NCBI GenBank assembly: GCA_025642075.2
Contig: JAODUO010000554.1
Span: forward strand, 102,001 to 166,000
Direction of reading: 5' to 3'
Length of the DNA stretch: 64,000 bases
Source of the DNA: Ridgeia piscesae
Taxonomy: Eukaryota; Annelida; Polychaeta; Sabellida; Siboglinidae
The translations under genes and the position numbers were made by a program. Shown here piece by piece: positions 4,601 to 62,655 of this stretch (the stretch's first letter is position 1; each line of letters opens with the position of its first letter). The notes below the pieces were generated by a model. It saw only the letters and a program-made list of their open reading frames with translations. It had not been told where the DNA came from and did not search any database.

Positions 4601-7600
4601 TTCAAGTTAAAATTTGATTTGTGTTGTCATCTTATCTCAAATTCATATTGTAAAAATGGTCATCATAGAATCATATTCACGATGTTATGGTGAATCACCT
4701 GAGGAACTCACTGTAAAGACGACTGCGTCAAATATCCACAAAGGTTCTTTCTCCTGGCAGTAAAAACGCGCTATTGTTGGAGTAATGTGTATTGTTGATA
4801 CTGTGGGGAACCTACATGATCACTACACAACTCAGGCCTGTGACATAATCGTGCTCTGTTTATTTCTCTTTTCAGTTCATCTTTGAATTCATTTAGACTC
4901 CAGCTGTATTAACCTGCTGATGTAGAGATCATAGAATATAGGTCATAGTTCACTGATGTGCCCTCCATGTTGCAGTATGCGAGAGAGTTGATGCAGGCCT
5001 CGGAGACCCGCAGTGGTCTTTACTTCATCTTCGCAGCAGACGCAAGTCGAATAAAGCGCAGTCTGGCGGAGGCTGTCAAAGACAACGACTTCATCTATCA
5101 CGCCATGGTGCCTGAACGCAGCGCCCTCTCACCCATCGGAAAGTTTCCGGTAGCAAAGTTACTGCCATACTCGCCACCACTCAGTAGTGGGTTCAAAGGT
5201 CAGTGGTTGTCATGTTCCCTCAGCCCAGGGGTTCCAGGAGCTGAAGCCTCAGGGTTCAAGTCCACCTGCTGCTGTTCAAAAATTGGGCTTTGCACATGTC
5301 TTTTCAGAGAGATGCTAAACGTTGCTGCTGCTTCTAGATTAGTGTCAATGCCAGGGTGACTGATGCACTGCTATGTGCAGATGAGTTGGTGTAATGGATT
5401 AACTCGTAAGTTTGTGAAGACTGTTTAGTATTGTTCAATATCTTCTACCAAGAATGTTACAATCAGGTTTGGTGTCACCTGTATCGATCTACTCATCCTA
5501 CTACTAAATTAACCAGTGATTCGTCTCCCATGCCATCTATTTTGTAACCTATTCTGGGACTTAGAAATAAAATCTGAGTGTTTTAGTATCTACTATTTAT
5601 CAACTGTTTTATAATTATTTATTTATTTTTTCTTTAGCATTTTTAGTATTGTATTACTATTATGACTACTCTTATATATTTATATTGATCAATTTACCTT
5701 ACAAATGCCCTCTATTTTAACTTTTTAAAGGAAATCTTCCCAGTGCTGTACTGAGCCCTGGATGGTTACAATTGCTAGATTCATGGCGCAGAAAACTGTC
5801 CGGTTATTATTACTTTGTGACTGTCCCTGACAACCGACTGGTTCTGCCCGACAGACCTGTTTGAGAAGATCATGCCACTGTCCGTGCACCAGGCTCTCAG
5901 GGGCTTTGAGAACAACAAGGCAGCCGTCGTGAACACAGAGGTGGGGCGACTGAGGGAGGCCACAGAGTTGTTGAACAGGTGGGTCACACCCCTCTACCCC
6001 TCCCTCCGATTGTGAACAATCTATCACTGAATCTACACAAGTGAAAATGTACACGATCTAGACAAATCTGACAGCTAGACAAATGTTCGCGTGTCAGTTA
6101 CGTGTGATGGAAATTACAATTGTTACAACACAGGCAGGTGCATTTGGGCTGATTTTTGGCCCTGGTCACTGGGTTAAACTAAATATAAAAATCTTGAATA
6201 CCTGAACATTTTCAACACCGTGGCTCGGCCGCGGGACACTGTCACTGGTGTGTCACGGAAATAGTGTCCATGGTAACATGGCAATGGATATTTGCATTTT
6301 GAAAAACTCAATTGAACAAAGAATTTTGTTCAATGATGAATTTTTCGTACGAGATCTTAGTGAAATGGTCCCCATGATTGTACATCTGCTCCCCGTGTCA
6401 TGACGTCGGTGACTCTCCTGTTGTCAGTATTCTCATGTCACTAGAACTGCATATTTGCTCCCATGTCATGATGTCGGTGTCTGACAGTCTCTGTTGTTGT
6501 CAGTATCCTGACATCCCTGAACCTGCCTGCGGCCCTGGAGGACCTGGGTGGAGCTACCGTGCCTCAGTCTCTGCTGGAGAAGGCGGACCAGATCCGACAG
6601 CTCGGGGGGCTGCGGAGTCTGAGAGAAAAGATGGACAACCTCCCCGATCTACTCGTAAGGAACAAGGAGATCCTTGATGAGGTAGGAGAGCTCTCAACTG
6701 GATGTGTGTAACTGGGTGGCGTGTGGGGGACCAGTGGTTGATGGCAGGTGTGTGTTAGTTGCTGGAGTGAAGTCCTGTGCACCCCTGTACCTGTACCAAG
6801 TGTCATGTGACAAGCTTTAGTAGTGTTGTTATTGGCAAGATTTTTGTTGCATGCTGACCATGTGCTGGTTGTTACTGGCTAACTGTATGACGATTGTTGC
6901 AGGTTTGCCATATGTTGGTTGTTGGACTTGTTGCCGTGTGTGTTGTTGCGGGCTTACCGTAGGCTGGTTGTTGCAGGCTGACTGTGTGTGTTGTTGCAGG
7001 CTGACCATGTGTGTTGTTGCAGGCTGACCGTGTGTGTTGTTGCAGGCTAACCGTGTGTGTTGTTGCAGGCTGACCATGTGTGTTGTTGCAGGCTGACCAT
7101 ATATGTTGTTGCATGCTGACCGTGTGTGTTGTTGCAGACTGACTATGTATGTTGTTGCAGGCTGACCGTGTGTGTTGTTGCAGGCTGACCGTGTGTGTTG
7201 TTGCAGGCTGATCGTGTGTGTTGTTGCAGGCTGATCGTGTGTGTTGTTGCAGGCTGACCGTGTGTGTTGTTGCAGGCTGACTGTGTGTGTTGTTGCAGAC
7301 TGACCGTGTGTGCTGTTGCAGGCTGACCGTGTCTGTTGTTGCACGCTGACCGTGTGTGTTGTTGCAGGCTGATCGTGTGTGTTGTTGCAGACTGATCGTG
7401 TGTGTTGTTGCAGGATGACCGTGTGTGTTGTTGCAGGCTGATCGTGTGTGTTGTTGCAGGCTGATCGTGTGTGTTGTTGCTGGCTGACCGTGTGTGTTGT
7501 TGCAGGCTGTCCGTGTGTGTTGTTGCAGGCTGACCGTGTGTGTTGTTGCAGGCTGACCATGTGTGTTGTTGCAGGCTGACCGTGTGTGTTGTTGCAGGCT

Positions 7601-10600
7601 GACAGTGTGTGTTGTTGCAGGCTCACCGTGTGTGTTGTTGCAGGCTGACCGTGTGTGTTGTTGCAGGCTGACCATGTGTGTTGTTGCAGGCTGACCGTGT
7701 GTGTTGTTGCAGGCTGACCGTGTGTGTTGTTGCAGGCTCACCGTGTGTGTTGTTGCAGGCTGACCGTGTGTGTTGTTGCAGGCTGACCATGTGTGTTGCA
7801 GGCTGACAGTGTGTGTTGTTGCAGGCTGACCGTGTGTGTTGTTGCAGGCTGACCGTGTGTGTTGTTGCAGGCTGACCGTGTGTGTTGTTGCAGGCTGACC
7901 GTGTGTGTTGTTGCAGGCTGACCGTGTGTGTTGTTGCAGGCTGACCGTGTGTGTTGTTGCAGGCTGACCGTATGTTGAATGAAGAGGAGTCGTCAGATAG
8001 ACAGTTGCGGGAACAGTTCAAGGCTCAGTGGACGCGGACGCCCTCAACCAACCTCACTGCCCCAATCCGCAGCGAGGCCGAGAAGTACCGCACCATCCTC
8101 AACAACGCCATGGCCGCGGACAAGGTCATCAAACAGCGCTTCAACGAACACGTGGCCGGCTACGAACTCCTCAGTCAGTCTAATGTATGTCTGGCCGGCA
8201 CAGACACATGCACACATACATAACACAAGCACACATCAACACACACCAATTACACAGACACATGCAGACATACATAGCACAAGCACACATCAACCCGCAC
8301 TAATTACACAGACACATGCACACATACATAACACAAGCACACATCAACACACACCAATTACACAGACACATGCAGACATAGATAGCACAAGCACACATCA
8401 ACACACACTAATTACACAGACACATGCACACATACATAGCACAAGCACACATCAACACACACTAATTACACAGACACATGCAGACATACATAGCACAAGC
8501 ACACATCAACACACACTAATTACACAGACACATGCAGACATACATAGCACAAGCACACATCAACACACACTAATTACACAGACACATGCACACATACATA
8601 ACACAAGCACACATCAACACACACTAATTACACAGACACATGCACACATACATAACACAAGCACACATCATTACACATTAATTACACAGACACATGCACA
8701 CATACGTAGCACAAGCACACATCAACACACACTAATTACACAGACACATGCACACATACATAACACAAGCACACATCAACACACACTAATTACACAGACA
8801 CATGCACACATACATAACACAAGCACACATCAACACACACTAATTACACAGACACATGCACACATACATAACACAAGCACACATCAACACACACTAATTA
8901 CACAGACACATGCACACATACATAACACAAGCACACATCAACACACACTAATTACACAGACACATGCAGACATACATAGCACAAGCACACATCAACACAC
9001 ACTAATTACACAGACACATGCACACATACATAACACAAGCACACATCAACACACACTAATTACACAGACACATGCACACATACATAACACAAGCACACAT
9101 CAACACACACTAATTACACAGACACATCACACATACATAACACAAGCACACATTAACACACACTAATTACACAGACACATGCAGACATACATAACACAAG
9201 CACACATCAATACATACTAATTACACATACACATGCAGACATACATAACACACGCACACATCAACACACACTAATTACACAGACACATGCACACACACAT
9301 AACACAAGCACACATCAACACACACTAATTACACAGACACATGCACACACACATAACATATGCACACATCAAACACACTAATTACACAGACACATGCACA
9401 CATACATAACACAAGCACACATCAACACACACTAATTACACAGACACATACACACATACATAACACAAGCACACATCATTACACATTAATTACACATACA
9501 CATGCAGACATACATAACACACGCACACATCAACACACACTAATTACACAGACACATGCCACACACACATAACACAAGCACACATCATTACACACTAATT
9601 ACACATACACATGCAGACACACATAACATAAGGACACATCAATACACACTAATTACACAGACACATCACACATACATAACACAAGCACACATCAACACAC
9701 ACTAATTACACAGACACATACACACATACATAACACAAGCACACATCATACACTAATTACACATACACATGCAGACATACATAACACACGCACACATCAA
9801 CACACACTAATTACACAGACACATACACACTACATAACACAAGCACACATCAACACACACTAATTACACAGACACATACACACATACATAACACAAGCAC
9901 ACATCAACACACACTAATTACACAGACACATACACACATACATAACACAAGCACACATCAACACACACTAATTACACAGACACATACACACATACATAAC
10001 ACAAGCACACATCATTACACATTAATTACACATACACATGCAGACATACATAACACACGCACACGTCAACAGACACTAATTACACAGACACATAACACAA
10101 GCACACATCATTACACACTAATTACACATACACATTCAGACATACATAGCACAAGCACACATCAACACACAACACAGACACGCGCACCTTTTTCACACAC
10201 ATACACAGATAGACAGATATTTAAACTTATAAAACTGACACACACGTGTGCGCACACACACATACACACTCACTCCCAAAACGCATACATATACCGTCAC
10301 ACAAAGACAACAGTTACTTGCATCGTTCTCAACGTTTTGCTGCCAAGTTTTGACAATGACAGACAGTGACAAGTACTGTGATGTCAGTCAGTGACACGTA
10401 CTGTGATGTCAGTCGGTGACAAGTACTGTGATGTCAGTCAGTGACACGTACTGTGATGACAGTCAGTGACAAGTACTGTGATGTCAGTCAGTGACACGTA
10501 CTGTGATGTCAGTCAGTGACACGTACTGTGATGACAGTCAGTGACACGTACTGTGATGACAGTCAGTGACACATACTGTGATGTCAGTCAGTGACACGTA

Positions 10601-13600
10601 CTGTGATGGCAGTTAGTGACACGTACTGTGATGACAGTCAGTGACACGCACCGTGATGACAGTCAGTGACACGTAACGTGATGACAGTCAGTGACACTTA
10701 ACGTGATGACAGTCTGTGACACATACTGTGATGACAGTCAGTGACACGTACTGTGATGACAGTCAGTGACACGTACTGTGATGACAGTCAGTGACACGTA
10801 CTGTGGTGACAGTCAGTGACACATACTGGGATGACAGTCAGTGACACGTACTGGGATGACAGTCAGTGACACGTACCGTGATGACAGTCTGTGACACATA
10901 CTGTGATGACAGTCACTCAGTGACACTACTACTAAGAAGAGGGAAATAAAATGTGCACATAAACCACAGCACCAACTGCTGGTTTTGAAGTGTTGCTGCC
11001 AACCAACGTAAGATGTTCCGTAGTTTCTGCTTCGCTTTCCAACCTTCATGCCAAGCTGATTTCTGCCAGGCCGACATCGAGAGAGCACTGCCGTCGTCTA
11101 GTCCCATCGCCTCCCTCAAGGGGTCGCCAGTGGTGCAACAGTTGACCCAGTTGATGGAGGAGGTGGAGACCATCAAGGCGGAGCGCGAGGTCATTGAGAG
11201 CGAACTCAAGGAAGCAACGTCAGATCTGAGTATGTCAAATTGATGCACTTTATTTGCTGCAGAACAGTGACAAACATTTCCACAAACCATGTTTGCGCAA
11301 CACTGTTAAATTTGCAGTTGTTAACTAGTCATTTTAAAGGGCAAAGGCAACGGTTTGGTGTTATGCACCTGAAAGAGTTTACACAAGCTAACCATTTGCA
11401 TCTACAGTCAAATTTTTCGCAGTAGTAGTTTCCTCAGAAATTGGAGTTAAAGTGGGTAAATCTAGCTAAATCACTGACACCATGAACGGACCCATCTTGG
11501 TCCATGCAACCAATCAAAACACAGTTTCTATCTGCACTTTGGAAAAGTATTAGGTCATAAAGTCGTCTGCTTTTTCAGCTATCATAACAGAGTCAAGCGG
11601 TTCGCTAAAAGTGCCTTACGTCGGTTTACAACGAAACCGTGACAGCAATTTGCCACACTGTTCCTCATACGCTTGTAGCAACAGTTCAGTGAAAGACGGT
11701 GTCAGTAAGCTGTCTTTTTGTTACCCTTTGAATTGACCAGAACTGAAACAGTGGTCCAGTGGATTTGTTGGGACAGTCACAGACACAGTGCGGATGCCAG
11801 ATGACCGGGTTGGATTGACCCAACCATGAAAACGACATCCACCACCCGCCAAACTTCTCCTCACCTATCTTACATACATATACATACACTACGTTATAAA
11901 ATAAAATCACTTCCATTCCTCTAACGAATAAAATTTGCAAAACAAACGCACAGATCTCAACGGCAACTTTGTCGGCCGCTCTGCGGTACCGTAAAAATTA
12001 TAATGTAATAATATTTTATTTATATAGTGCCACATCCATGATTGGTTGTGGCGCTTCACAATATGCTGCTATTACAAAATACAATAAGACGAAAATTACC
12101 CACAGATAATATTTTAAAATAAATAATGAAAATACATGTCTATATAATTAACGAAAGTGACCTATCAGTATTAAAAAGAACCCATACAAATTCCATAGCA
12201 ACAATAATGATAAATTAATCTAAAGGTAATATATAATTAAAAATGGTAAAATAATTACAATGTAACAATATTTTCCATTCGGCACATACACAGTATTACA
12301 CACACACATTGTGCACAAGAAAATGTTATTGAAGCTATTTTTTTCTACTTATGAATGATATTTCCACCACTAGAAAAAGAAGGTTTTGGTGCATTTAAAA
12401 ATAATAATATTAATATGTTATTGTTTTAGTTATTATTGCTAAAACATTGTTTATGTAATATAAGCTTGCATGCTCGCAGTACATGCGGGATGTTTATAGA
12501 AATATTGATAAAATAAATAATGTGACATCATTGAACAACACGTAATTTCCATACCTCTTTTATGACTAATAGGCAATTTTAGATAATTATTCAGACACAT
12601 GTATTTTTGATATTTATTTTAAAATATTACCTGTGTGTAGCATTCTTCTTATTGGCTTATTGGTTCTTAATGTGCTGGCTTGTGTGTTCTTAACGTGCTG
12701 GCTTGTGTGTTCTTAATGTGCTGGCTTGTGTGTTCTTAATGTGCTGGCTTGTGTGTTCTTAATGTGCTGGCTTGTGTGTTCTTAATGTGCTGGCTTGTGT
12801 GTTCTTAATGTGCTGGCTTGTGTGTTCTTAAGTGCTGGCTTGTGTGTTCTTAAGTGCTGGCTTGTGTGTTCTTAACGTGCTGGCTTGTGTGTTCTTAACG
12901 TGCTGGCTTGTGTGTTCTTAACGTGCTGGCTTGTGTGTTCTTAACGTGCTGGCTTGTGTGTTCTTAACGTGCTGGCTTGTGTGTTCTTAACGTGCTGGCT
13001 TGTGTGTTCTTAACGTGCTGGCTTGTGTGTTCTTAACGTGCTGGCTTGTGTGTTCTTAATGTGCTGGCTTGTGTGTTCTTAATGTGCTGGCTTGTGTGTT
13101 CTTAATGTGCTGGCTTGTGTGTTCTTAATGTGCTGGCTTGTGTGTTCTTAATGTGCTGGCTTGTGTGTTCTTAATGTGCTGGCTTGTGTGTTCTTAATGT
13201 GCTGGCTTGTGTGTTCTTAACGTGCTGGCTTGTGTGTTCTTAACGTGCTGGCTTGTGTGTTCTTAACGTGCTGGCTTGTGTGTTCTTAACGTGCTGGCTT
13301 GTGTGTTCTTAATGTGCTGGCTTGTGTGTTCTTAACGTGCTGGCTTGTGTGTTCTTAAAGTGCTGGCTTGTGTGTTCTTAACGTGCTGGCTTGTGTGTTC
13401 TTAAAGTGCTGGCTTGTGTGTTCTTAACGTGCTGGCTTGTGTGTTCTTAACGTGCTGGCTTGTGTGTTCTTAATGTGCTGGCTTGTGTGTTCTTAATGTG
13501 CTGGCTTGTGTGTTCTTAATGTGCTGGCTTGTGTGTTCTTAATGTGCTGGCTTGTGTGTTCTTAATGTGCTGGCTTGTGTGTTCTTAACGTGCTGGCTTG

Positions 13601-14099
13601 TGTGTTCTTAACGTGCTGGCTTGTGTGTTCTTAACGTGCTGGCTTGTGTGTTCTTAACGTGCTGGCTTGTGTGTTCTTAACGTGCTGGCTTGTGTGTTCT
13701 TAACGTGCTGGCTTGTGTGTTCTTAACGTGCTGGCTTGTGTGTTCTTAACGTGCTGGCTTGTGTGTTCTTAACGTGCTGGCTTGTGTGTTCTTAACGTGC
13801 TGGCTTGTGTGTTCTTAATGTGCTGGCTTGTGTGTTCTTAATGTGCTGGCTTGTGTGTTCTTAATGTGCTGGCTTGTGTGTTCTTAATGTGCTGGCTTGT
13901 GTGTTCCAAGGCGCAAAGTTCCTGAGGGCGTTGGCAGAAGACGGTGCCATGGACGAAGACAAGCTTACAAGCCAAGAGCTGGACAGGATCTACGCCCCAC
14001 TGCGGGAACAAGTCTCAGGCAGTCTACTCAGACAGGAGCAGATTGTGTCACAAATACAGGTACAGGAGCATGTTGTAGCGCCAAATGTCAAAAGTATGT

Positions 14100-14174
<75 letters not shown>

Positions 14175-17100
14175 ATTATATCACCAATTTACAACTATTT
14201 ACATTATTAGTTTACACCCAGACCCGGAGCAGCAGGAGTTGCCACTTGTCATCACTACACAGTTCTGACCATGAACAAATGCTCATGTTCATTCAGTTTC
14301 TGCAGTCAACAGCAGCACGCAGCTGATGACAGCAGCTAGTGTGACTCGGCTGTGACACAATCTGGTGAATGACTGACAAATAAGTTTACAATAAGTAATT
14401 ACTTTGCCTGCATCACCAGTTGGTACAACTATCCTCTTCTTCCATATACTGGATTGGGCCCTTGCAGGGCTTTAAAAGTCCAATGAAACTTGTGAGCTTG
14501 GGAGGGGGACGGTGTATGCTCTCTTAAAACAGTTACTATAAAAAATAAAACGTTAATAAAGTTATTCTATGGGCCTTTGGTGATTTAAGAATGTATTATT
14601 AAGATGCTCATGAAGAAATTAAACCAGACGTTAAGGCACAAAGGCCTGCCCTGAAAGCCTCTATTTTTATAATTTGGAATACACATATTTTAGGTACTGT
14701 GCGCGAGACATTTACATTTGATTGGATCATTCTGTAGGCCCCAAAACTGGTAAACAAACGTTTTTCAAAACTTATGTAACTTTTCCTCTGATATCGGAAA
14801 GTTCATAGGTAATACTGAAGAAATGTTTATTTTATACAATGTTTCTATGGGCACCTGAGGGCCTCTGAAAAACCTAAATGTCAACATTTTGTGTTTAGTG
14901 TATTTTAACGGTTATTTAATTATCTTTAAAATGGTGTGACTGTTAGATTGTCACCTGTAGGTGACAACTATAAAATTTATATTCTATACAATTAAGTATC
15001 ATACATTTTATTGATATCAATTGCATCCTAATCACTTGGCGGCCATATGGATTGTAAGTAGATAACTCCCTCTTGACCAGAACCACAGATGACCCGTCCT
15101 GTTGCTGCATTCACACAATTTGAGTGTTTCTGGTCATCTCGTGAATAACCAGAAACAATGCCAGTAGGTGAATAGGTGTTGCAGTGTCATGGATATAACC
15201 ACAGGAGAGTGTCCAAATGGTGTTGACATGTCATGAGTATACAAATGTTGACATGTCACATGTCATTTTTGCTTTAGTCGATGGTTCACCAGGCAAGCAA
15301 CTGCGCTGTTTGTTTCAGAGTGCCAATAACGACTTCACTCAAGCGCGGTCACAGAACCAGTCAGGCGCGACACGTGAACAGAAACTCAAGGACTTGGCTG
15401 CTGCCTTTGACAGCTTTGTCACCCTCAAGAATAACTTGGATGAAGGCACGAAGGTGGGTCTAATACTGCGCTGTACTGATGTCTCTCACACAGCTGTCGT
15501 TTACGTTGTCTCCGTGTCCACAGTTCTACAATGACCTCATGGAGCTATCGTTTACATTTACAATGATCCCACGGAGCTGTCGTTTACATTGTCTCCCTGT
15601 CCACAGTTCAACAATGACCTCACGGAGCTGTCGTTTACGTTGTCTCCCTGTCCACAGTTCAACAATGACCTCACGGAGCTGTCGTTTACGTTGTCTCCCT
15701 TTCCACAGTTCAACAATGACCTCTCGGACCTGTGTTTACGTTGTCTCCCTGTACAGTTCAACATGATCCGGAGCTTCTTTACGTTGTCTCCCTGTCCACA
15801 GTTCAACAATGACCTCACGGAGCTGTCGTTTACGTTGTCTCCCTGTCCACAGTTCAACAATGACCTCACGGAGCTGTCGTTTACGTTGTCTCCCTGTCCA
15901 CAGTTCAACAATGACCTCACGGAGCTGTCGTTTACGTTGTCTCCCTGTCCACAGTTCAACAATGACCTCACGGAGCTGTCGTTTACGTTGTCTCCCTGTC
16001 CACAGTTCAACAATGACCTCACGGAGTTCTACGTTGTTTCCTGTACAGTTCAACAGTCTCCGGGCTGTCGTTTGGCCCTGTCCACAGTTCAACAATGACC
16101 TCACGGAGCTGTCGTTTACGTTGTCTCCCTGTCCACAGTTCAACAATGACCTCACGGAGCTGTCGTTTACGTTGTCTCCCTGTCCACAGTTCAACAAACT
16201 CCGGAGCTGTTGTTTCCCTTCACAGTTCCGTGACTCAGGGGCTGTCGTTTACGTTGTCTCCCTGTCCACAGTTCAACAATGACCTCACGGAGCTGTCGTT
16301 TACATTGTCTCCCTGTCCACAGTTCAACAATGACCTACGGACTCATGTTTATTGTCTCTGTCACAGTTCTGACCTCATGGAGCTGTCGTTTTTACGTTGT
16401 CTCCCTGTCCACAGTTCAACAATGATCTCACGGAGCTGTCGTTTACGTTGTCTCCCTGTCCACAGTTCAACAATGACCTCAGACTGTGTTTACATTGTTT
16501 GCTGTCCCAGTTCTACAATGACCTCAGTGTGTTTACGTTTCCCTACAGTTCAACAATGACCTCACGTAGCTGTCGTTTACGTTGTCTCCCTGTCCACAGT
16601 TCAACAATGACCTCACAGAGCTGTTGTTTACATTGTTTTGCTGTCCACAGTTCTACAATGACCTCACGGAGCTGCTGGTCAAGTTCCAGTCAAAGGTCAG
16701 CGACCTGTGTTTCGCCCGGCGCACAGAAAAAGAGGAACTGATGAAGGATCTGCAGAACACAATCGCCCAGCGCCCCGCCGCCGCCCCACCAACTGCCCCC
16801 TCCTATCAACAACCAACAGGTAAAATGGCTGCCCAGTGACTGCCCCTGTGAATGTTGACAGTCTCCTGTGTATGTTGTATGTGGTCTCTGATGTTGTCAC
16901 TGTTGTATCCATTCGCATGTACTGGTGTTGTCATATAATTTACACATTCACTAGTGAAGTGTTCATGGCCCTGTATGTAGCTTGACACTCTGTGAGTGAA
17001 CTGCTAGGGACTCGTGAGTGAACTGCTAGGGACTCGTAAGTGAACTGCTAGGGACTCGTGAGTGAACTGCTAGGGACTCATGAGTGAACTGCTAGGGACT

Positions 17101-20100
17101 CATGAGTGAACTGCTAGGTACTCGTGAGTGAAGTGCTAGGGACTTGTGCTCTTTCTTGCCAAAAAGTGCACTTCTAGTGCAGCCATGACGAGAATGCTAT
17201 TTTATAACTATAACATGATCTTGTTGCAGTAACTGACACAAATTAGTAGTAACTATTCTTTCAATTAGCCAGTGATAATATCAGTTGCCCATCTGTGGCA
17301 TTCAGTGACCTGTGTTGGGTGTTAGAACTGGTCCATTAGTGACAAAAACCTTTCTGGCTTTCATTATCCTGTGAGATGAGCAAACAAATGTTGTTTAGAC
17401 GCTAGCTGTGTCATTAGACACATGTCATTCTGTGTCAAGTGATACTCATCGCGTCAACATGGTCATTACGTGGTGTCACTGAAAACAACTGTCATGTGAC
17501 TCTCACAGTGTCAACCCAAACCAGTGTCAACCAATGTCGGTGTCAACTACTATTTAATGTATACGTACCAATCATAGATAATGTAAATGTTGTGTTAGGT
17601 TGTAAATGTAAATGTTTATTAATTTATATAGCACCTATATATAGTATATATATATATATATTATGATATTCTATGGTGCTGCACAATATACGAGTCAATA
17701 TAAACATTCAACGTAATACACATATATTGATATAATATAAAATAGTAAAATAAATTAGCTAAATAAATATATAATTACATTGTTTAATTAGTATAAAATT
17801 TAAAAAAAATTGTCACTACTGTAGTGATGTCACTATCGTCAGGTAAGAAGTCACCACAGTCGGGTAAGGTGTCACCACAGTCGAGTAAGGTGTCACCACA
17901 GTCGAGTAAGGTGTCACCGCCCCCGATGATGATGCCAATGGCCCAACAACCCGCATTTCACATTGGTTCCCCTCAACCAGTCGAATTTCTGGGTCAACAA
18001 CCAATGTTTAGATCTGTCTCACCATTATTTGAACCAACATATCTGAGAGGTAAAATTTGGTTTAGTCGCTGACTAAACAGTTCGTTTGTTGTTCAATACA
18101 TTGGCTCAAAGTTTGACTCGAAAGAAATCAGTTATGGAACTAGTATATTTGGGGGGAAGGATGGAAGTTGAACATGACACTTCCTTTGTAAGTCAAACTT
18201 TTAGTCCTTGATGAATGGTTTATGGTCGGGTTGAGTTTTGAAAGTAACATTTGTTTGTTACATTAGAAAAATAGTGGACGTTGCCTGGTCACTACCTCGT
18301 GGTAGTGGCCAAAGTTATCGCCAGTCAGCTGCGTTGACGTGATCAACTTGTCAGTTGGCCGACAACTGTCAAGGAGTATTGGTTGCCATGACAACCAGAT
18401 TTGAAGGAAATGTCAGAAAAGTCATGACTGTTAAGCTGTTGCTTCCATTTGTGTTAATAGGTGGACCACTAATGTAAAAGTGGACCACCAACATTCACCT
18501 TTGGAAGTGTGAAATTCCTGCTGATCGGCCACTTCTCAGATCAGGTGTAGAACCCTGGTGCTGTGACTGTCAGCCTGCACATAAAGATCCAAACAATCAT
18601 GTTGTTGCAGTATTTTGGCAGTCCTAGACACCTGTTATTAAAGTTTTTTATTCTGGTCATCTGGAGGTGTCTATGAGTCAGTTGTTGAACTGATGGTTCC
18701 AGAGTAGAGGAGGACTGTCTTGGTGCTGCTTAGAGCCGCCCAGCCAGAGACCTGTAGCCACCAACTGGAATGAATTAATGTTTTATTCAACATCAGCAAC
18801 AAACTTAGAGGTGGCAGACTGTCAGTGCTTGTGTATGCTTTGGGATCAGGTTGTATTTTGTTGTGTTCTGTTATTACTAAGTAATAGTTGTTGTGGTTGT
18901 TGTAATAGCTGCTGTTGTTGTTGTTGTTGTTGTTGCACTAACATACGTGTGATGTTAGGGCGAGTAGACTGCCCTGTTCGTGGCAGAAGATTGGCCACAG
19001 AGGCAGCATGTATCCACAGACAGACAGCCTTGCTATTCTGACACAGTGTGTTCTCCCAGTTACGTGTTGTATGCACAATCTGCCCACACCTTTCTCCCCC
19101 AGCGGCATCAACTCCAGCGACTAGTACTAGTGAGGCGCCGACCGCACCCCCAAGGACTAAAAAGGCCCCTCCTCGACGCCCCCCGCCCCCCTCCAAGGCT
19201 GCCCGTGCCCCCACAGGTACGCACTTGATGCACTGGATTTTATGCACCATCAGTGTAAAATTTAATTTACGTGAATCCAGATGGTGTTCTTTTGTTAGTC
19301 TCAGTTGTAATGACATCACTTGTGTTGTACTACTTTGTTTCTATTTTGCACCTTCGCGCCCCCTAGTAGGGTTAACCTACCTACCCCTCTGGTTGGGTTA
19401 ACCTACCTACCCCTCTGGTTGGGTTAACCTACCTACCCCTCTGGTTGGGTTAGCCTCCACTGCACTGCTCGATGTACAGCCTCAGAAATGCATTATTTGT
19501 TACTATGATTACACTTTCTAAAAGTTTCCATTATGAATTATATATTGAAACTTTTAGAAATTATGACTTCTCTGAGAATTGTAATAACAACTGAAATGAC
19601 TAAGCTTTGTGTTCTTCTATGGTTATTTACAGATAACTTCCGCCAGTATTACATATAGTAATTACAGTAATATTAAAATTGTTATTTTGATATAAATATA
19701 TTAAACTAATGATGTGTTAAAACTTCTGAATTAATGACATGATATCATAATAGAAAAACATCCACCTACACTGTAAATGTTGTATTCTTGATGTGTTAAT
19801 TGTCCTCATTCCTAGCGTGGTGTGTGCACTTACAGTCAGCTGACTAATACATACTCAGTAGTGACTTTAATAATGCAAAACAATGTTGTCCATGACACGG
19901 CCGTGTCTCACTAAGTTGTGTGTTGGAGCATTATGTTGTCACAAGTAGACCTGTGTAGTGTCTGCAGCGTCACCCTCTGTCTGCTTGTAGGGTCCACACC
20001 CTCCCCCACCCCAGCCGCATCGGCACCGTCAACATACGCACCACCACAGGCACCACCCCCTACAGCACCACAGTCCACCATGCCACAACCACAGTCAGTG

Positions 20101-27460: not shown

Positions 27461-27999
27461 GTGTAAAGTGTGTGATATTATGTGAATGTATTGTGGTTTG
27501 ATGTTAATATTCACCATTTAATATAGGAATGAAAGACAAAAGCAATTTACAGCCACTTAACTTGGTGGATTGTAATGTGTGTAATTACACCATAATGCTC
27601 TACCACTGCTTGGTGCAAATGCCACTACTGGCACAAATACAAAATATCAGGATGTTTTTCCTGCCTCTGTTGTCTCAGTGTCTAGCAGCAATCAGGCAGC
27701 TACTAAATCCAGGGTATGTGTGAGAAGGGTAGTTGGCCACAAAATCAACTTCAAAGAACCATTGAAGCCACACAGCTGTCACATGGTCCTAGTGTCTCAC
27801 GCTATATAAACTCTCATAACATCCAGTGTGAAGCACACAGAAGGTCATAATTTACAGATGTGGAGACAATCATGACCTGAGAAAACTAGTAGAATATTCT
27901 TTTCTTGTAAATAATTAAATAAATAAAAATTAAGCACAATTCGAATTGAACTTTGAAATGTCAGATAATGTAATGTGATCTCTTCACCTACTGTAGACA

Positions 28000-29335
28000 A
28001 ACGATCTGATCCATTCACTCCTGTAGACATATGATCTATTCCATTCATCTCCTGTAGACATATGATCTATTCCATTCATCTCCTGTAGACATAAGATCTG
28101 ATCCATTCACCTCCTATAGACATAAGATCTGATCCATTCACCTCCTATAGACATAAGATCTGATCCATTCATCTCCTGTAGAGATAAGATCTGATCCATT
28201 CATCTCCTGTAGAGATAAGATCTGATCCATTCACCTCCTGTAGACATAAGATCTGATCCATTCACCTCCTGTAGACATAATATCTGATCTATTTATCTCA
28301 TGTAGACATAAGATCTGATCCATTCACCTCCTGTAGAGATAAGATCTGATCCATTCACCTCCTGTAGCCATAATATCTGATCCATTCACCTCCTATAGAC
28401 ATAATATCTGATCCATTCACCTCCTATAGACATAAGATCTGATCTATTCACCTCCTGTAGGCATAAGATCTAATCCATTCACCTCCTGTAGAAATAAGAT
28501 CTGATCTATTCACCTCGTGTAGAGATAAGATCTGATCCATTCACCTCCTGTAGACATAATATCTGATCTATTCACCTCCTGTAGAGATAAGATCTGATCT
28601 ATTCACGTCCTGTAGACATAAGATCTGACCTATTCACCTCCTGTAGACATAAGATCTGATCTATTCACCTCCTGTAGAGATAAGATAGATCTGACCCATT
28701 CACCTCCTGTAGACATAAGATCTGATCCATTCACCTCCTGTAGAGATAAGATCTGATCTATTCACGTCCTGTAGACATAAGATCTGACCTATTCACCTCC
28801 TGTAGACATAAGATCTGATCCATTCACCTCCTGTAGAGATAAGATCTGATCTATTCACGTCCTGTAGACATAAGATCTGAACCATTCACCTCCTGTAGAC
28901 ATATGATCTATTCCATTCATCTCCTGTAGACACATGATCTATTCCATTCATCTCCTGTAGACATAAGATCTGATCCATTCACCTCCTGTAGACATAAGAT
29001 CTGATCCATTCACCTCCTGTAGACATAATATCTGATCTATTCACCTCCTGTAGAGATAAGATAGATCTGACCCATTCACCTCCTGTAGACATAAGATCTG
29101 ATCCATTCACCTCCTGTAGACATAATATCTGATCTATTCACCTCCTGTAGAGATAAGATCTGATCCATTCACCTCCTGTAGAGATAAGATCTTATCTATT
29201 CACGTCCTGTAGAGATAAGATCTGAACTATTCACCTCCTGTAGAGATAAGATCTGAACCATTCACCTCCTGTACAGATAAGATCTGATCCATTCGCCTCC
29301 TGAAGAGGTAAGATCTGACCCATTCACCTTGTGCA
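28000..29335. repeat. 31-bp minisatellite, unit resembling the donor of a possible minus-strand exon
   Basis: About 43 copies of a 31-bp unit with TGATCCATTCACCTCCTGTA and GACATAAGATC on the plus strand. On the minus strand each unit reads TCTACAG, GAGGTGAATGGATCA, GATCTTA. The right-hand end merges into AAG-GTGAATGGGTCAGATCTTA, the donor of the candidate exon at 29328-29430. Confidence 0.93.
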
Positions 29336-37417: not shown

Positions 37418-37770
<353 letters not shown>

Positions 37771-42240: not shown

Positions 42241-42590
42241 ATTATGGCAGTGAGATCACCACGTCCGCTTACTTCGATGTTGTACGTCCAACTGGTTGCC
42301 AGTGAAACGACAAAGCGCTTGTGACGAGTGAGACGTGACGTAATTATCTTTTGAGCTCGAGGCTGCCGACGTCACTGCACAGCGTGAGTGGTGCAATGGT
42401 CAGCTAAGCACACGCCAATTTCAATTTGCTTAAATACTCACCTTTCTACAGTTGTAAGTGACCGCCGAACGTGATTTAATTTAAATGGCCAGTAATCTTA
42501 ATAGCCTAATAGTAGACGAGCTCCTATGTACCGATCATTATAGCAGATGAGTTGCATGTTCGTGCGTGTGAGTGCACAGCTGTGTGCATA
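42241..42590. other. Unassigned sequence beside the LINE
   Basis: No gene recognised; contains several CpG and ACGT motifs. Confidence 0.4.
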
Positions 42591-42593: not shown

Positions 42594-42682
<89 letters not shown>

Positions 42683-42689
42683 TGTGTGT

Positions 42690-42739
<50 letters not shown>

Positions 42740-43664: not shown

Positions 43665-43672
43665 TATAAATA
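43665..43672 (+). promoter_or_regulatory. TATA box in a GC-richer stretch, gene unknown
   Basis: TATAAATA preceded by a GC-rich, CpG-containing sequence. A start would fall near 43695. No convincing coding exon follows, so this could be the first exon of a gene read to the right with coding exons I cannot identify, a noncoding RNA promoter, or chance. Confidence 0.25.
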
Positions 43673-47600: not shown

Positions 47601-47867
47601 CACCACCTACTACAGACTGTCAACAGGGTATGTGACCTTCCACTGACCGGTCCAAGCTACACACCTTGTGTGTCACCCTCCCGTGTCCTGTGAACCATCC
47701 ATCGAGTCGTTCTCCCAGCGGTGTTGGGCTGTCATTACTGACACGGAGACTACAGGGAGTGAGTTGTCAAGCATGCCACTCTTTCATCAATGTCTTACAT
47801 TATCTGTCATCATAGCTGAGTAGACCTAGTCAAAGCCCGTGTATGTGAGCTGGCGGGAGGGAGAGTT

Positions 47868-48604: not shown

Positions 48605-51600
48605 CTGCAGCAACATATGTTAGTCAGTGTCATCACTTGTCATGACTTAACTTGCTTGGAAACAAGTTCTAATGAATTAATTTATTTATTTGGTAACATG
48701 AAGTTATAATTTAATAAATAAATTGATTACATGAGGTTGCAATAATTATTATATTTGGTAAAAAAGTTCTAATGAATTATATAATTTATTTGGCAAAGTT
48801 ATAATATAATGAATGAATTTGGTAATATAAAGTTATAATGATTGCATTTATTCATTAATAATAATGTCAATATTACATAAAGTTATAATGAATTTATTTA
48901 TTTCATAACAAAGTTATACTGGCTGAATGAATTTATTTCATAAAGTTTTAATGAATACATTTATTTATTTGGTAACATAAAGTTATAATAATTTAATGAA
49001 TTTATTTATTACATAAAGTTGTAATGAATTAAATAATGTATTTGTTAACATAAAGTTATCACAGATAAATGGGAAGAATAAAATTACATTGCAGAGTAAT
49101 ATAGCAAATTCAGTGGAAATACTGTGTGGCTTATTAGAGTACCATGTATAATACTACAATAAGTCACAGAAATAACTGCCATATAATCATGTTAATACCT
49201 TCTGCCTGTAGAGAAGCGAAGACAATAGAAAAGAAGACATTAAGACTTAGTCGCGTAGATGCATGGCCTCATTAGTGAGACAGGTATGAGTGGCCTCATT
49301 AGGCAGGTGGCCTCACCTAGCAGGCGAGTGGTAGTGCTCCCGGCAGCAATCTGTTCCCTCATCTGTGTGCCTATGGCGGGCAGCTTGGTGGACACCACCT
49401 TGTGTTTGCCAATGTAACCAATGGTGTAGACGTTGGACTCCCCTGGAACAGCACAAACACTCAGTGTTGACACTTGACAGGCACTGGGAACACAGCCAGG
49501 GACAGTCCCTGGGAACACAGCCAGGGACAGTCCCTGGGAACACAGCCAAGGACAGTCACTGGGAACACAGCCAGGGACAGTCCCTGGGAACACAGCCAGG
49601 GACAGTCACTGGGAACACAGCCAGGGACAGTCCCTGGGAACACAGCCAGGGACAGTCACTGGGAACACAGCCAGGGACAGTCCCTGGGAACACAGCCAAG
49701 GACAGTCACTGGGAACACAGCCAGGGACAGTCCCGGGGAACACAGCCAGGGACAGTCACTGGGAACACAGCCAGGGACAGTCCCTGGGAACACAGCCAGG
49801 GACAGTCACTGGGAACACAGCCAGGGACAGTCCCTGGGAACACAGCCAGGGACAGTCACTGGGAACACAGCCAGGGACAGTCCCTGGGAACACAGCCAGG
49901 GACAGTCATTGGGAACACAGCCAGGGACAGTCACTGGGAACACAGCCAGGGACAGTCACTGGGAACACAGCCAGGGACAGTCACTGGGAACACAGCCAGG
50001 GACAGTCCCTGGGAACACAGCCAGGGACAGTCACTGGGAACACAGCCAGGGACAGTCCCTGGGAACACAGCCAGGGACAGTCACTGGGAACACAGCCAGG
50101 GACAGTCCCGGGGAACACAGCCAGGGACAGGCACTGGGAACACAGCCAGGGACAGTCCCTGGGAACACAGCCAGGGACAGTCACTGGGAACACAGCCAGG
50201 GACAGTCCCGGGGAACACAGCCAGGGACAGTGGTCGAACTAAAGGACTCCACATATAACCAATGCATGCTTTTTTTTGGAAGCAGCAGAACGAGTCAACT
50301 GGCAGCCACTTGTAGTTGGGTGTCAGGGAAACTGTTTGTATTATGTGCTGCTGTATCAATGGACACCCTGTTATATAGAGGGATGCCCTGCTACATAAAT
50401 GGACACCCTGTTATATAAAGGGATGCCCAGCTACATAAATGGACACTCTGCTATACAAATGGACACCCTGCTACATAAATGGACACCCTGCCACAAATGG
50501 ACACCCTGTTACATAAATGGACACTCAGCTATACAAATGGACACCCTGCTATACAAATGGACACCCTGCTACATAAATGGACACCCTGCTACATAAATGG
50601 ACACTCAGCTATACAAATGGACAACCTGCTACATAAATGGACACTCAGCTATACAATTGGACACCCTGTTACATAAATGGACACCCTGCTACATAAATGC
50701 ACATCCTGTTACATAAATGGACACCTTGCTATACAAATGGATACCCTGCTACATAAATGGACACCCTGCTACATAAATGCACATCCTGTTACATAAATGG
50801 ACACCCTGCTACATAAATGCACATCCTGTTACATAAATGGACACCCTGCTATACAAATGGACACCCTGCTACATAAATGGACACCCTTCTACATAAATGG
50901 ACACTCTGCTATACAAATGGACACCCTGCTACATAAATGGACACTCTGCTATACAAATGGACACCCTGCTACATAAATGGATACCCTGCTACATAAATGG
51001 ACACCCTGCTACATAAATGGACACTCTGTTATACAAATGGACACCCTGCTACATAAATGGACACCCTGCTACATAAATGGACACCCTGCTATACAAATGG
51101 ACACCCTGCTACATAAAAGGACACCCTGCTACATAAATGGACACCCTGCTATACAAATGGACACCCTGCTACATAAATGGACACCCTTCTATACAAATGG
51201 ACACCCTGCTACATAAATGGACACCCTGCTACATAAATGGACACCCTGTAACATAAATGGACACCCTGCTACATAAATGGACACCCTGTTATATATGACA
51301 GTATCAAACCCTCACCCTCTGTCTTGTACTTGACAAAGGTTGTCTTCTCAGTCATCATGGCGTCCACTGCCAACTTCTCGTAGTACTTGGATGTGATGAT
51401 GGCCACAGTCGGTCGCGAGCCAGACGTCTGAATGGGCATCTGCTTGACCACCTTCACCTCTGTGGAACATAGATCATTAACTTCACCTCTGTGGAACATA
51501 GATCATTACCTTCACCTCTGTATGACACATAGATCATTACCTTCACCTCTGTGGAACACATAGATCATTACCTTCACCTCTGTGGAACACATAGATCATT

Positions 51601-54600
51601 ACCTTCACCTCTGTGGAACACATAGATCATTACCTTCACCTCTGTGGAACACATAGATCATTACCTTCACCTCTGTGGAACACATAGATCATTACCTTCA
51701 CCTCTTTAGAACACATAGATCATTACCTTCACCTCTGTATGACACATAGATCATTACCTTCACCTCTGTAGAACATATAGATCATTACCTTCACCTCTGT
51801 GGAACACATAGATCATTACCTTCACCTCTGTCAAACACATAGATCATTACCTTCACCTCTGTGGAACACATAGATCATTACCTTCACCTCTGTAGAACAT
51901 ATAGATCATTACCTTCACCTCTGTAAAACCTTCACCGCTGTAGCACACATGCACATTCACCTTATCACCTTATGTGAGTAGCTACAACGAAGGCACCTGG
52001 CGCCATCTATCAGGGATGTTTTTCTATACTGACAAACTGCTGTGTATTTTTATATGAATCAAACATTTCATGAGAAGGCAATATGTTCACAGCCGAAGGT
52101 TGTCAGGCCAGCAGTTACGTCTGAGCCAAATGTACGATCCTTTCAATCACACAAGTGTCAGACAAAGGAAGCACCATCAACTTCTTTGTCCAACACAATG
52201 GTTTCATATGTCACACATCTGCACTCGGAATAACACTGGTGCCTGAGGGACAATTCCCAGGTGCTGGTGGCGTGATGTCGACATTCCTACTGTCACTACA
52301 TGACTACTGCAGCTACAGAACAAATCACAAATAAATCCTTGCCAAATCACCCTACAAACTGTTGCTTGGAATCTGACTGCTATGAGACTGGACCACAGTG
52401 ACCTGAACTGCAAGATGGTCACTGAGGTGGTCAAATTAGTAGAACTCAATTCCTATAATTTACTGCTATCCAAATAATTTGGGACTGTCCTGGGGTGAGT
52501 GTATGTGCAAGGTAACTATAAAATACAGTTTGACTGTAGACAACTTTCACACAACTGTTCAACATTATGAACACATTCAAATGTCCACTGATCTGTGACT
52601 GATATGACCAATGGGGCTGGGGCAACTTATGTGACTGATACAGCTCATGTGACTGATGTGACTGATGTGACTGATGTGACTGATGTGACTGATGTGACTG
52701 ATGTGACTGAAGTGACTGAGCCACCCACCTGTCTTGTCGTCCTTGACGTTGCGCACCCACTTGCCCGGCTCCATCTCGCGGATGAGGTCGCGACCCTTCA
52801 GCACCTGCAGTTGCTCCTGCACCATTGTCTGCTCCGCCGCCGTCAGACTACAACCACACGACACTGGTCAACACACTGGTCAACACACTGGTCAGCACAC
52901 TGGATAACACACTGGTCAACACACTGGACAACATACTGGTCCACTCACTGGTCAACATACTGGACAACAAACACACTGGTCAACTCACTGGTCAGCACAC
53001 TGGATAACACACTGGACAACATACTGGTCAACTCACTGGTCAACATACTGGACAACAAACACACTGGACAACAAACACACTGGTCAACTCACTGGATAAC
53101 ACACTGGACAACATACTGGTCAACTCACTGGTCAACATACTGGACAACAAACACACTGGTCAACTCACTGGTCAATACACTGGTCAACTCACTGGACAAC
53201 AATCACGCTGGTCAACAAACACACTGGACAACAAACACACTGGTTAACTCACTGGTCAACACACTGGTCAATTCACTGGTCAACACACTGGATAACAAAT
53301 ACGCTGGTCAACAAACACACTGGACAACAAACACACTGGTCAACAAACACACTGGTCAATTCACTGGTCAACACACTGGTCAACACACTGGTCAACACAC
53401 TGGACAACAAACACACTGGTCAACTCACTGGTCAAGACACTGGACAACACACTGGTCAACTCACTGGTCAACTCACTGGTCAACACACTGGTCAATACAC
53501 TGGTCAAGACACTGGACAACACACTGGTCAACACACTGGTCAACACACTGGACAACAAACACACTGGTCAACTCACTGGACAACTCACTGGATAACACAT
53601 GGGTCAACACACTGGACAACACACTGGTCCATCTCTCCCAAGTTGTTGCATTATAGCAATGCAAGTTTATTACACACTTATGATCACTGTTACAATGGGT
53701 GGACAGTCATGACATAATTACATGCCTCAGGAAGTATTATGTATGCTACGCTGAAGACTACATGGCTGAAGTTAATGAGACAACTACATAGAGCACTTAC
53801 TCAGTGAGGTAGTCGACGGGCATCACGTTGGGGTAGGCCGACTCCAAGGTGAGCAGAAGTCTCTCTTGCACAATGACATTCTTGGGCCGCGTGTCCTCCT
53901 TCTTCAGACCTGTCACCAACAACACGTCACACGTCAGCACAGTCAACTCACTCACAGGTCACTTGTGATACAATGCTCCTGCGTCACACATCTATGGCAC
54001 ACTGGTGACATGTCATCAGTCTATGACGCACGCACATATGTCACCTAGCTATGACACCGTGCATGTGTGTCACCTGACTATCATATTGGCTTACACGACT
54101 TTCTTATAGATTATTACAACCATGTCTGAAGCAATGACATGTCACTCTGTTAAAGCACCAGTTATCCAAGTGTCTATTTGGCTGGTTTTCATTTTTTTTA
54201 TTGTGTTAATTAATAAGTTATCACACAGAAGCCAGTGACACAATGACATTGTACTTGTCAGTGACATGCTGACAGTGTACTTGTCAGTGACATGCTGACA
54301 GTGTACTTGCCAGTGACATGCTGACAGTGTACTTGCCACTGACATGCTGACAGTGTACTTGTCAGTGACATGCTGACAGTGTACTTGGTCAGTGACAAGT
54401 TGACAGTGTACTTGTCAATGACATGTTGACAGTGTACTTGTCAGTGACATGCTGACAGTGTACTTAGTCAGTGACAAGTTGACAGTGTACTTGCCAGTGA
54501 CATGTTGACAGTGTACTTGCCAGTGACATGCTGACAGTGTATTTGCCAGTGACATGTTGACAGTGTACTTGCCAGTGACATGTTGACAGTGTACTTGCCA

Positions 54601-60600: not shown

Positions 60601-61482
60601 TTTAAAGAACTGATTAAGGAACTGAGGTGGATCATAGAAGTGGCACGTAGTACAAACAGGTAAATGTTGAGAACTGTGAACAACCCAGACACCATCCACA
60701 GTTTGGGTGTAGTGGGCCACTTGTGCATCACAACAAAGAAAACACCTGTCCCAACATAAACGTCACTGTCAAGTTGTGTTGAAATTAACCAAGATGGGTC
60801 ACGTGTGACTTCTGTGAACATTTAACACACATATAAGCTGTACAGTTAGGCAAACTAAGACCAATAAATGAGAAGAAAATCCCAAACGAGAAATTTTGAA
60901 GATAAAAACATTGTCAGCAAACCACGGTAAATAATTACACAGAAGTGAGTCAAAGTTGCTGCATCTTTGGTACGCAGGTGACACCTTGGTGAGTGAGGTA
61001 CATCGCCATAGCAACCAGCAGAAGCCACTAGAAGGCTGCTGGGGGTAAGCGCGACCACGAGAGAGAGAGAGAGAGCACACGTTTGTCTGTATGTACAGTG
61101 TCATTACTCACCAGAGGCTGTCCTGAAATTTCCCCCTAAATTGAGAGTAGCACTCACATTCAGAATCATCAAACGATGCGGGACGACCGCTAGACGCTCG
61201 TTACACAGAACTGAGACATGAATTTAATCAACCAAACTACCCGTTACGTTAGCACGTTGTCAATTACGACTTTATACGACAGTATTAAATATTACGATAT
61301 CCACCGCCACAGATGTTAACAGGTGATGTATTGTTAGCTCGAGAAGGGGGACATACCAGGACTCATAGGGGGTCCGGCCTCAGTCGGCTCCAGGGGGCTC
61401 AGGTCTACGTCTATCTTCTTCATCATGCTGTACTTGGGCTGTTGCATCTGCTTCATCACCTTCTTGATGAAGCCCACATAGT
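47868..61482 (-). CDS. Winged-helix-like plus nucleoside phosphorylase domain protein, 3' six exons, 5' partial
   Basis: Exons in transcript order on the minus strand: 61482-61357, 53909-53801, 52847-52729, 51459-51316, 49442-49317, 48604-47868. Every junction is GT-AG and joins in phase. The peptide opens DYVGFIKKVMKQMQQPKYS, then has a segment that looks like a winged helix (QERLLLTLESAYPNVMPVDY, EQLQVLKGRDLIREMEPGKW), a linker (KVVKQMPIQ) and a nucleoside phosphorylase/nucleosidase fold: RPTVAIITSKYYE, NVYTIGYIGKHKVV, VEHVFLVGVGGGVPHYTDF, HLGDVIVSS, DTEFDQVLESI, SFAFIRGVVDYLDGTKN and WQPYSSLVAAAFMKAV. In the MTAN/PNP superfamily the Asp in the IRGVVDY block is catalytic and the Glu of DTEF lies near the ribose-binding Glu; both are present, so activity is plausible. 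I recognise the superfamily but no named gene. Upstream exons lie beyond 64000 or were not found. Confidence 0.85.
48660..49060. repeat. Degenerate AT-rich repeats in phosphorylase-gene intron
   Basis: Recurring AAAGTTATAATGAATTTATT-like segments of variable spacing between exons 48604-47868 and 49442-49317. Confidence 0.6.
49480..50232. repeat. 25-bp minisatellite near the acceptor of exon 49442-49317
   Basis: About 30 copies of GGGAACACAGCCAGGGACAG with TCCCT or TCACT. On the gene strand the unit reads TGTGTTCCCAG then TGACTGTCC or GGACTGTCC, close to the real acceptor TGCTGTTCCAG-GGGAGTCC some 40 bp away. It may be a diverged copy of that junction, but similarity is short. Confidence 0.93.
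50355..51297. repeat. 20-bp minisatellite
   Basis: About 46 copies of ACATAAATGGACACCCTGCT, alternating irregularly with a variant that has ATAC in place of ACAT. It fills the rest of the intron next to the donor at 51315. Confidence 0.95.
51463..51935. repeat. 31-bp minisatellite carrying the acceptor of exon 51459-51316
   Basis: About 15 copies. On the gene strand each unit reads CTATGTGTTCCACAG then AGGTGAAGGTAATGAT; the functional exon begins TTCCACAG-AGGTGAAGGTGGTC. The acceptor and first ten exon bases are therefore repeated upstream. Confidence 0.95.
51936..52636. other. Unique part of phosphorylase-gene intron 51460-52728
   Basis: No exon or array recognised between the 31-bp array and the 9-bp repeats. 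Confidence 0.6.
52637..52716. repeat. 9-bp repeat next to the donor of exon 52847-52729
   Basis: About nine copies of TGACTGATG, ending some 12 bp from the donor. Confidence 0.93.
52858..53632. repeat. 12-bp minisatellite next to the acceptor of exon 52847-52729
   Basis: Roughly 60 copies of CACACTGGTCAA with irregular variants. On the gene strand it gives repeated GTTGACCAGTGT; TTGAC fits a weak branch-point consensus. The array ends about 10 bp from the exon, so it forms the branch and polypyrimidine region. Confidence 0.93.
54236..54875. repeat. 26-bp minisatellite in phosphorylase-gene intron 53910-61356
   Basis: About 25 copies with core CATGCTGACAGTGTACTTGC and CAGTGA. Confidence 0.95.
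55598..56092. repeat. 17/20-bp mixed minisatellite
   Basis: Units ACATGTTGGGCAGATACTCA (20 bp) and a 17-bp form lacking three bases alternate, with GGCC for GGGC in some. Confidence 0.95.
56395..59180. repeat. 60-bp minisatellite, about 44 copies
   Basis: The unit contains GGTGTCATGAGGTGTTTGTT, GATATTACAAGGTATTTGTG and AGTGTCACGTGTGTTCTGTT. Divergent at the left, almost perfect to the right, where an alternation of TTACAAGG and TAACATGG copies suggests a 120-bp higher-order unit. Length is a multiple of three, so long frames are open on the plus strand, antisense to the gene; they are artefacts. Confidence 0.97.
59190..61356. other. Non-array part of the large phosphorylase-gene intron
   Basis: No exon recognised on either strand. 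A short GA run lies at about 61060-61074. Open frames here are short and lack family blocks. Confidence 0.5.
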
Positions 61483-61485
61483 CTG

Positions 61486-62655
61486 AAACATGTAGCAATA
61501 TCTCAACATCTAGTTCATCACCTTCTTGATGAAGCCCACATAGTCTGAAACATGTAGCAATATCTCAACATCTAGTTCATCACCTTCTTGATGAAGCCCA
61601 CATAGTCTGAAACATGTAGCAATATCTCAACATCTAGTTCATCACCTTCTTGATGAAGCCCACATAGTCTGAAACATGTAGCAATATCTCAACATCTAGT
61701 TCATCACCTTCTTGATGAAGCCCACATAGTCTGAAACATGTAGCAATATCTCAACATCTAGTTCATCACCTTCTTGATGAAGCCCACATAGTCTGAAACA
61801 TGTAGCAATATCTCAACATCTAGTTCATCACCTTCTTGATGAAGCCCACATAGTCTGAAACATGTAGCAATATCTCAACATCTAGTTCATCACCTTCTCG
61901 ATGAAGCCCACATAGTCTGAAACAAGTAGCAATATGTCAACATCTAGTTCATCACCTTCTTGATGAAGCCCACATAGTCTGAAACATGTAGCAATATCTC
62001 AACATCTAGTTCATCACCTTCTCGATGAAGCCCACATAGTCTGAAACAAGTAGCAATATGTCAACATCTAGTTCATCACCTTCTTGATGAAGCCCACATA
62101 GTCTGAAACATGTAGCAATATCTCAACATCTAGTTCATCACCTTCTCGATGAAGCCCACATAGTCTGAAACATGTAGCAATATTTCAACATCTAGTTCAT
62201 CACCTTCTTGATGAAGCCCACATAGTCTGAAACATGTAGCAATATGTCAACATCTAGTTCATCACCTTCTTGATGAAGCCCACATAGTCTGAAACATGTA
62301 GCAATATCTCAACATCTAGTTCATCACCTTCTTGATGAAGACCACATAGTCTGAAACATGTAGCAATATTTCAACATCTAGTTCATCACCTTCTCGATGA
62401 AGCCCACATAGTCTGAAACAAGTAGCAATATGTCAACATCTAGTTCATCACCTTCTTGATGAAGACCACATAGTCTGAAACAAGTAGCAATATCTCAACA
62501 TCTAGTTCATCACCTCCTCGATGAAGCCCACATAGTCTGAAACAAGTAGCAATACACTTGCAATATCTCAACATCTAGTTCATCACCTCCTCGATGAAGC
62601 CCATATAGTCTGAAACATGTAGCAATAAACTGCAATATCTCAACATCTAGTTCAT
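61486..62655. repeat. 62-bp minisatellite carrying an acceptor plus 31 bases of exon 61482-61357
   Basis: About 19 copies. On the gene strand each unit reads TACATGTTTCAG, ACTATGTGGGCTTCATCAAG, AAGGTGATGAA and then CTAGATGTTGAGATATTGC. The acceptor and first 31 bases match the functional exon exactly; in the copies the frame then meets TAG. Most copies are identical over 62 bases. Confidence 0.97.

Follow-up and report, generated by a model that had tools for sequence, protein, structure and literature searches.

Tandem repeats that run over exon-intron boundaries, termed mirages, have been described in amphioxus, in Adh3 and the globin genes BflGb6 and BflGb9 (PMC3087553) and in PGBD5 and the troponin C gene (PMC3902484). 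The accessible portions of both articles report that mirages leave splicing undisturbed, and those of the former describe somatic instability at Adh3. We analyzed a window of 64,000 nucleotides of genomic DNA (C554:102001-166000 of an assembly of 628,048,202 bases in 4875 contigs). In this window, two genes carry minisatellites across five of their splice junctions: ALIX (PDCD6IP), on the plus strand, and a winged-helix/nucleoside-phosphorylase-like gene on the minus strand, referred to below as the phosphorylase gene. By their structure these arrays are mirages: the unit is of minisatellite size, it spans the boundary and includes exon bases, both kinds of boundary are involved, and each locus has its own unit. 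The phenomenon is thus known as a kind. What our analysis adds is a second phylum, as judged from protein matches, an estimate of how often such arrays occur (19 of 151 introns), a model of chance placement, and an excess of arrays at acceptors.

Tandem Repeats Finder (TRF) returned 64 rows in the window. A first-pass annotation of this DNA had placed six arrays at exon junctions. Comparison of TRF edges with exon edges showed that five of the six cross a junction, taking in 10 to 39 exon nucleotides. Three of them are in ALIX. A 23-bp minisatellite of 45 copies (6934..7975, plus strand) contains the acceptor and 13 exon nucleotides of the exon at 7963..8184. Degenerate copies of this unit begin at about position 6842, and of its 43 intron copies of the junction, or decoys, 39 have the AG intact. 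A 51-bp minisatellite (15527..16674, plus strand) contains the acceptor and 24 nucleotides of the exon at 16651..16819 (FYNDLTELL...), with the AG kept in 16 of 16 decoys. At the exon at 19991..20104 it is the donor that was copied: a 52-bp minisatellite of 27 copies (20066..21475, plus strand) carries the final 39 exon nucleotides and the donor GTAAGT, which is kept in 25 of 25 decoys. The other two arrays are in the phosphorylase gene. A 31-bp minisatellite of 15.5 copies (51450..51924, minus strand) contains the acceptor and 10 nucleotides of the fourth modeled exon (51316..51459), and a 62-bp minisatellite of about 18 copies (61445..62662, minus strand) contains the acceptor and 38 nucleotides of the first modeled exon (61357..61482). 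The AG is kept in 15 of 15 and 17 of 17 decoys, respectively. The sixth array, a 31-bp minisatellite at 27976..29329 (plus strand), had been taken for a probable donor array at 28000-29335. It turned out to be intergenic, lying between ALIX, which ends at 22171, and HEXIM (34686-35561, minus strand), with no recognizable exon alongside; a scan of six flanking open frames gave no Pfam match.

The junctions themselves were placed by protein homology. For ALIX, spliced alignment and inspection by hand yielded 14 exons (1589-22171), and the N-terminal part of the gene is outside the window. The three array-bearing exons were defined by the spliced model and its alignment to the Lamellibrachia satsuma protein. 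The predicted protein is 84% identical to that of L. satsuma and at most 60% identical to any other among 120 proteins listed; therefore, the DNA most likely comes from a siboglinid annelid or near kin. L. satsuma PDCD6IP aligned to the spliced ALIX product without gaps across all three array-bearing joins. For the phosphorylase gene, six exons were modeled (61482-47868, minus strand), and a Paralvinella protein matched the full model at 68% identity. This protein extends upstream of the exon at 61482-61357, so the first modeled exon is an internal one. Because the upstream exon was not found, the acceptor at 61482 was excluded from the statistics. At the array-bearing junctions of both genes, homologous proteins join the same residues. 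The product of the phosphorylase gene is a winged-helix protein (PF22979), some homologues of which are called nucleoside phosphorylase or carry PF01048. Glycogen phosphorylase was ruled out as its identity (best match, E 1.8).

The frequency of junction-spanning arrays was measured in 151 introns of 13 genes, namely the two window genes and 11 genes picked irrespective of repeats (CCT1-8, HSPD1, CLTC, and VCP). CCT1-8 and HSPD1 were located by Pfam search with PF00118, and clathrin heavy chain and VCP by protein search. A further gene family, located with PF00171, lies outside the sample. Exon models were obtained by spliced alignment to human proteins, at 68-80% identity for CCT/HSPD1. Introns were dropped if an adjoining modeled exon was shorter than 45 nucleotides or less than 50% identical to the bait. 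This left 94 of 130 introns for CCT/HSPD1, 34 of 41 for CLTC/VCP, and 5 of 19 for the second CLTC pieces, where some of the others had already been counted. Coverage of CLTC is partial, as C303:283001-288000 lies outside the sample. An array was defined as a TRF call with a period of at least 9 and at least 3 copies, and it was scored as junction-spanning if it reached at least 5 nucleotides into the exon. In the main null model, each array was collapsed to one unit and placed randomly in the array-free intron, edges included; in the second, the whole array was slid. In total, 58 arrays were found in 47 of the 151 introns, and they make up 32.4% of the intron bases. In a 146-intron set, the median length was 1288 nucleotides for introns with arrays and 502.5 nucleotides for those without.

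Nineteen introns had an array across a boundary, with 7 to 39 exon nucleotides captured, and these arrays are spread over 10 contigs. Fourteen span an acceptor and five a donor, compared to an expectation of 3.96 for either side under the main null (P = 3e-6 and P = 0.36, respectively). The second null gave an expectation of 4.36 and the same outcome (P = 2.6e-5 for acceptors and 0.447 for donors). Thus, acceptor capture is above chance, about 3.5-fold over the chance model, and donor capture is at chance. In the genes outside the window (40 arrays), we counted 11 acceptors and 4 donors against 3.02 expected (P = 3.4e-5 and 0.355). The window genes alone, with 18 intron arrays, gave 1 donor and 3 acceptors against 0.94 expected (P = 0.046; second null, 1.07 expected, P = 0.068). 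The excess within the window is therefore marginal at best, and it is the wider genome sample that makes it firm. Capping the period at 60 bp changed the expectation from 3.63 to 3.07 in a 52-array set. The first-pass annotation had suggested a recurrent process that duplicates DNA at exon boundaries, and had proposed comparing the arrays with chance-placed controls. The suggestion is supported for 3' splice sites, where more arrays are found than such controls predict; at donors, the count is that expected by chance.

A count that did not depend on TRF agreed with the main one. In 14 of 151 cases, the intron before an exon contained three or more near copies of that exon's first 10 bases. For the 10 exon bases that follow, this was so in 3 cases, and for 10-mers lying 20 to 50 bases deep in the exon in 0 to 2 (n = 148 to 151). 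On the donor side, the corresponding counts were 6 of 151, then 3, and then 0 to 1.

These counts bear on a neutral explanation, in which tandem duplications occur at random and those straddling a junction survive as well as those within the intron, so that no process at splice sites is involved. Such a filter, which lets duplications across a junction persist and removes those inside exons, is a weaker form of a survival idea raised in the first-pass annotation. It correctly predicts the number of donors, and it also predicts that duplications of fewer than 3 copies show no excess. However, it does not predict 14 acceptors under either null, nor the 11 acceptors in genes chosen irrespective of repeats, and we regard it as unlikely. 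In its strict form, the idea would allow intron duplications to survive only if they carried a usable splice site, and this fails, since 39 of the 58 arrays lie over no junction.

The 19 arrays differ from one another in sequence. TRF periods were 22 to 54 bp in 15 of them and 133, 144, 223, and 225 bp in the others (the 133-bp unit was also reported as 51). Each unit consists of the intron end and exon start of its own locus, and none of the 171 pairs of units has an exact 12-mer in common. The first-pass annotation was therefore correct that the units are unrelated, that the genes are unlinked, and that no single mobile repeat is responsible. A mobile or RNA-templated element of the introner type, inserting at splice sites, would account for the recurrence at splice sites of unrelated genes. 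Nevertheless, the units are derived from their own loci, and the genome matches of the 23-bp ALIX array that were examined (7 loci) were mostly other arrays with units of 22 to 25 bp and a different sequence, which led us to reject a dispersed repeat family as well. The form of this explanation that requires a shared sequence is refuted, and an introner-like origin of any form appears very improbable. We also considered that read errors or misassembly had multiplied single junctions. Minisatellites are difficult to assemble, and one amphioxus mirage was misassembled in a draft genome, according to the accessible part of that report (PMC3087553). Against this, the copies in the five window arrays differ from one another (TRF matches of 84 to 95%), and the 19 arrays are on 10 contigs, joined to coding exons, with a different unit at each locus. 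There is very little likelihood that an assembly artifact of this kind produced them.

The spanning arrays contain 519 decoy junctions, from 2 to 67 per intron, and 504 of them retain the AG or the GT/GC. Decay of the decoys as a means of protection is ruled out, as they are intact. If used, the 374 intact acceptor decoys, found in 14 introns, would result in a frameshift in 241 cases, an in-frame stop in 129, and an in-frame insertion free of stops in 4 (1 in ALIX, 2 in VCP, and 1 in CLTC). The retention of the decoys would be expected if arrays with 3' splice sites were selected for, with the additional acceptors, branch points, and polypyrimidine tracts making the splicing of long introns more efficient or buffering the loss of the real site. 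The length of the acceptor-spanning arrays points the same way (median, 1078.5 bp, versus 488 bp for arrays over no junction; P = 0.052). However, for 370 of these 374 acceptor decoys, use would be harmful. Moreover, agreement with the array majority at acceptor decoys was 0.976 for the AG, 0.948 for other intron positions, and 0.958 for exon-derived positions (11-gene set). By these values, the decoys are not being purged. The AG thus barely exceeds its neighbors, a result that concerted evolution alone could give. We consider selection for such arrays quite unlikely.

Our favored explanation, which we regard as probable, is that the arrays are mirage-type minisatellites spanning junctions, that they occur in many of this genome's genes, and that they involve separate steps of origin, growth, and tolerance. 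An array would be born when a short local tandem duplication straddles an exon-intron junction, leaving an intact junction beside the exon. Unequal exchange or slippage would then add copies on the intron side; many diverged copies are indeed observed. The array would be tolerated through exon definition, the pairing of acceptor and donor across the exon: of all the copies, the exon-proximal one alone adjoins a complete exon that has a partner splice site, so it would be selected and the other copies would remain intron. Exon definition and a single intact exon-proximal junction would together explain both the tolerance of the arrays and the direction of their growth. Duplications fully within exons would be purged by selection unless in frame. 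The first-pass annotation had stated that arrays always grow into the intron, which is nearly right. The ALIX exon at 17843-18049 departs from it, opening with a coding in-frame 21-bp array (17843..17918, plus strand) that starts at the acceptor and is absent from the L. satsuma protein.

A more specific proposal goes beyond this and is put forward only tentatively. According to it, 3' splice sites would be preferred points of minisatellite amplification in this lineage. Introns would lengthen at the 3' end through a DNA process linked to transcription, to splicing, or to the polypyrimidine tract, and the spliceosome would routinely take the last of many near-identical acceptors. The acceptor is copied in about one intron in eleven (14 of 151), up to some fifty times. 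Under our favored explanation, the simplest additional cause of the acceptor excess may be GT-rich polypyrimidine tracts prone to slippage and amplification. The frequency of TG/GT dinucleotides before the AG was 0.433 at acceptors reached by an array (n = 18) versus 0.332 at the others (n = 133; P = 0.007).

Several results weigh against these interpretations. When the 14 acceptors were compared directly with the 5 donors, P was 0.064 (0.049 in the earlier 52-array set), and donors may also be enriched. Duplications with fewer than 3 copies had no acceptor excess (1 of 28 versus 0.72 expected in the 146-intron set); therefore, the bias may arise while arrays grow or persist and not at their birth. 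G content before the acceptor was alike with and without an array (P = 0.24). The two positions of the AG differ in their agreement (0.993 and 0.959), so that constraint on the AG is not clearly stronger than on the positions around it. Only 8 of the 14 real acceptors had a branch-like YTNAY motif 15 to 50 nucleotides upstream, which leaves exon-derived branch points unsupported as a general feature. Finally, that the exon-proximal site is the one correctly used is inferred from protein homology only.

Other arrays in ALIX approach a junction and do not cross it. A 23-bp minisatellite at 12663..13906 (plus strand), whose unit has neither an AG nor exon bases, ends 4 nucleotides before the acceptor at 13911, and position 8199, in another array, lies 14 nucleotides beyond the donor at 8184. 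Near the start of the window, a 23-bp minisatellite of 70 copies (13-1582) ends 6 nucleotides before the acceptor at 1589; it lies outside the count. The exon that follows (1589-1698) has a GC donor (GCAAGT) at 1699 in place of GT. In the genome sample, Cpn60/TCP1 matches were also seen in long intronless open frames at C107:419691-420908 and C271:350940-351863, which may be retrogenes, divergent chaperonin relatives, or bacterial sequence. Elsewhere in the window, HEXIM is an intronless gene with a single exon (34686-35561, minus strand; PF15313), the product of which is 43% identical to a Branchiostoma floridae protein (67% of the query covered) and 96% identical to an ENA protein. These values, together with the ALIX identities given above, led us to reject amphioxus as the source of the DNA. 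The dinucleotide AG is repeated perfectly 175 times at 37420-37769. Remnants of a reverse transcriptase gene extend over several frames at 40978-42241 (minus strand), with weak RVT_1 matches, below the curated cutoff, in 2 of 3 pieces.

Our literature search, which was thin on subscription journals, found no mirages reported outside amphioxus. In the accessible parts of two tubeworm genome papers (PMC9921365 and PMC10192322), the word "minisatellite" does not occur, and no such arrays are mentioned where introns or tandem repeats are discussed. If our interpretation is correct, introns of one or more animal lineages besides the lancelets would often grow through mirages, commonly enough for statistics, and the genes concerned include those for CCT, HSP60, clathrin, and VCP. 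Every array would then serve as a natural experiment on the choice of splice site, with near-identical sites in series, of which only the one beside the exon would give a correct mRNA. The arrays would offer a ready test of exon definition versus 3' scanning. New introns or exons might arise from them, and they would be a reason for caution in the annotation of genes in such genomes.

Among known systems, introner elements likewise multiply splice signals within one genome, and their sequence is common to the loci. In contrast, the units described here have no common sequence between loci. Intron gain by tandem genomic duplication, as in the potato RdRp gene, also involves a duplication that carries splice signals (PMC4974935); the arrays described here multiply existing junctions within existing introns. 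In abalone TSSK1, a 27-bp intron array varies in copy number (PMC6905558). Our arrays resemble it in being intronic and tandem. Capture of the adjoining junction is not described in the accessible part of the abalone report, and 39 of our 58 arrays likewise cross no junction. The closest likeness is to the amphioxus mirages. As far as the available portions of those articles go, both systems consist of minisatellite-type duplications across 5' or 3' boundaries in several genes, and many but not all copies carry the AG or GT. The present arrays, known here from genome sequence alone, differ in being from another phylum (by protein matches), in reaching up to about 64 copies by TRF, compared to the 6 and 3 given for amphioxus BflGb6, and in having been measured over 151 introns instead of at single loci, with an excess at acceptors against a chance model.

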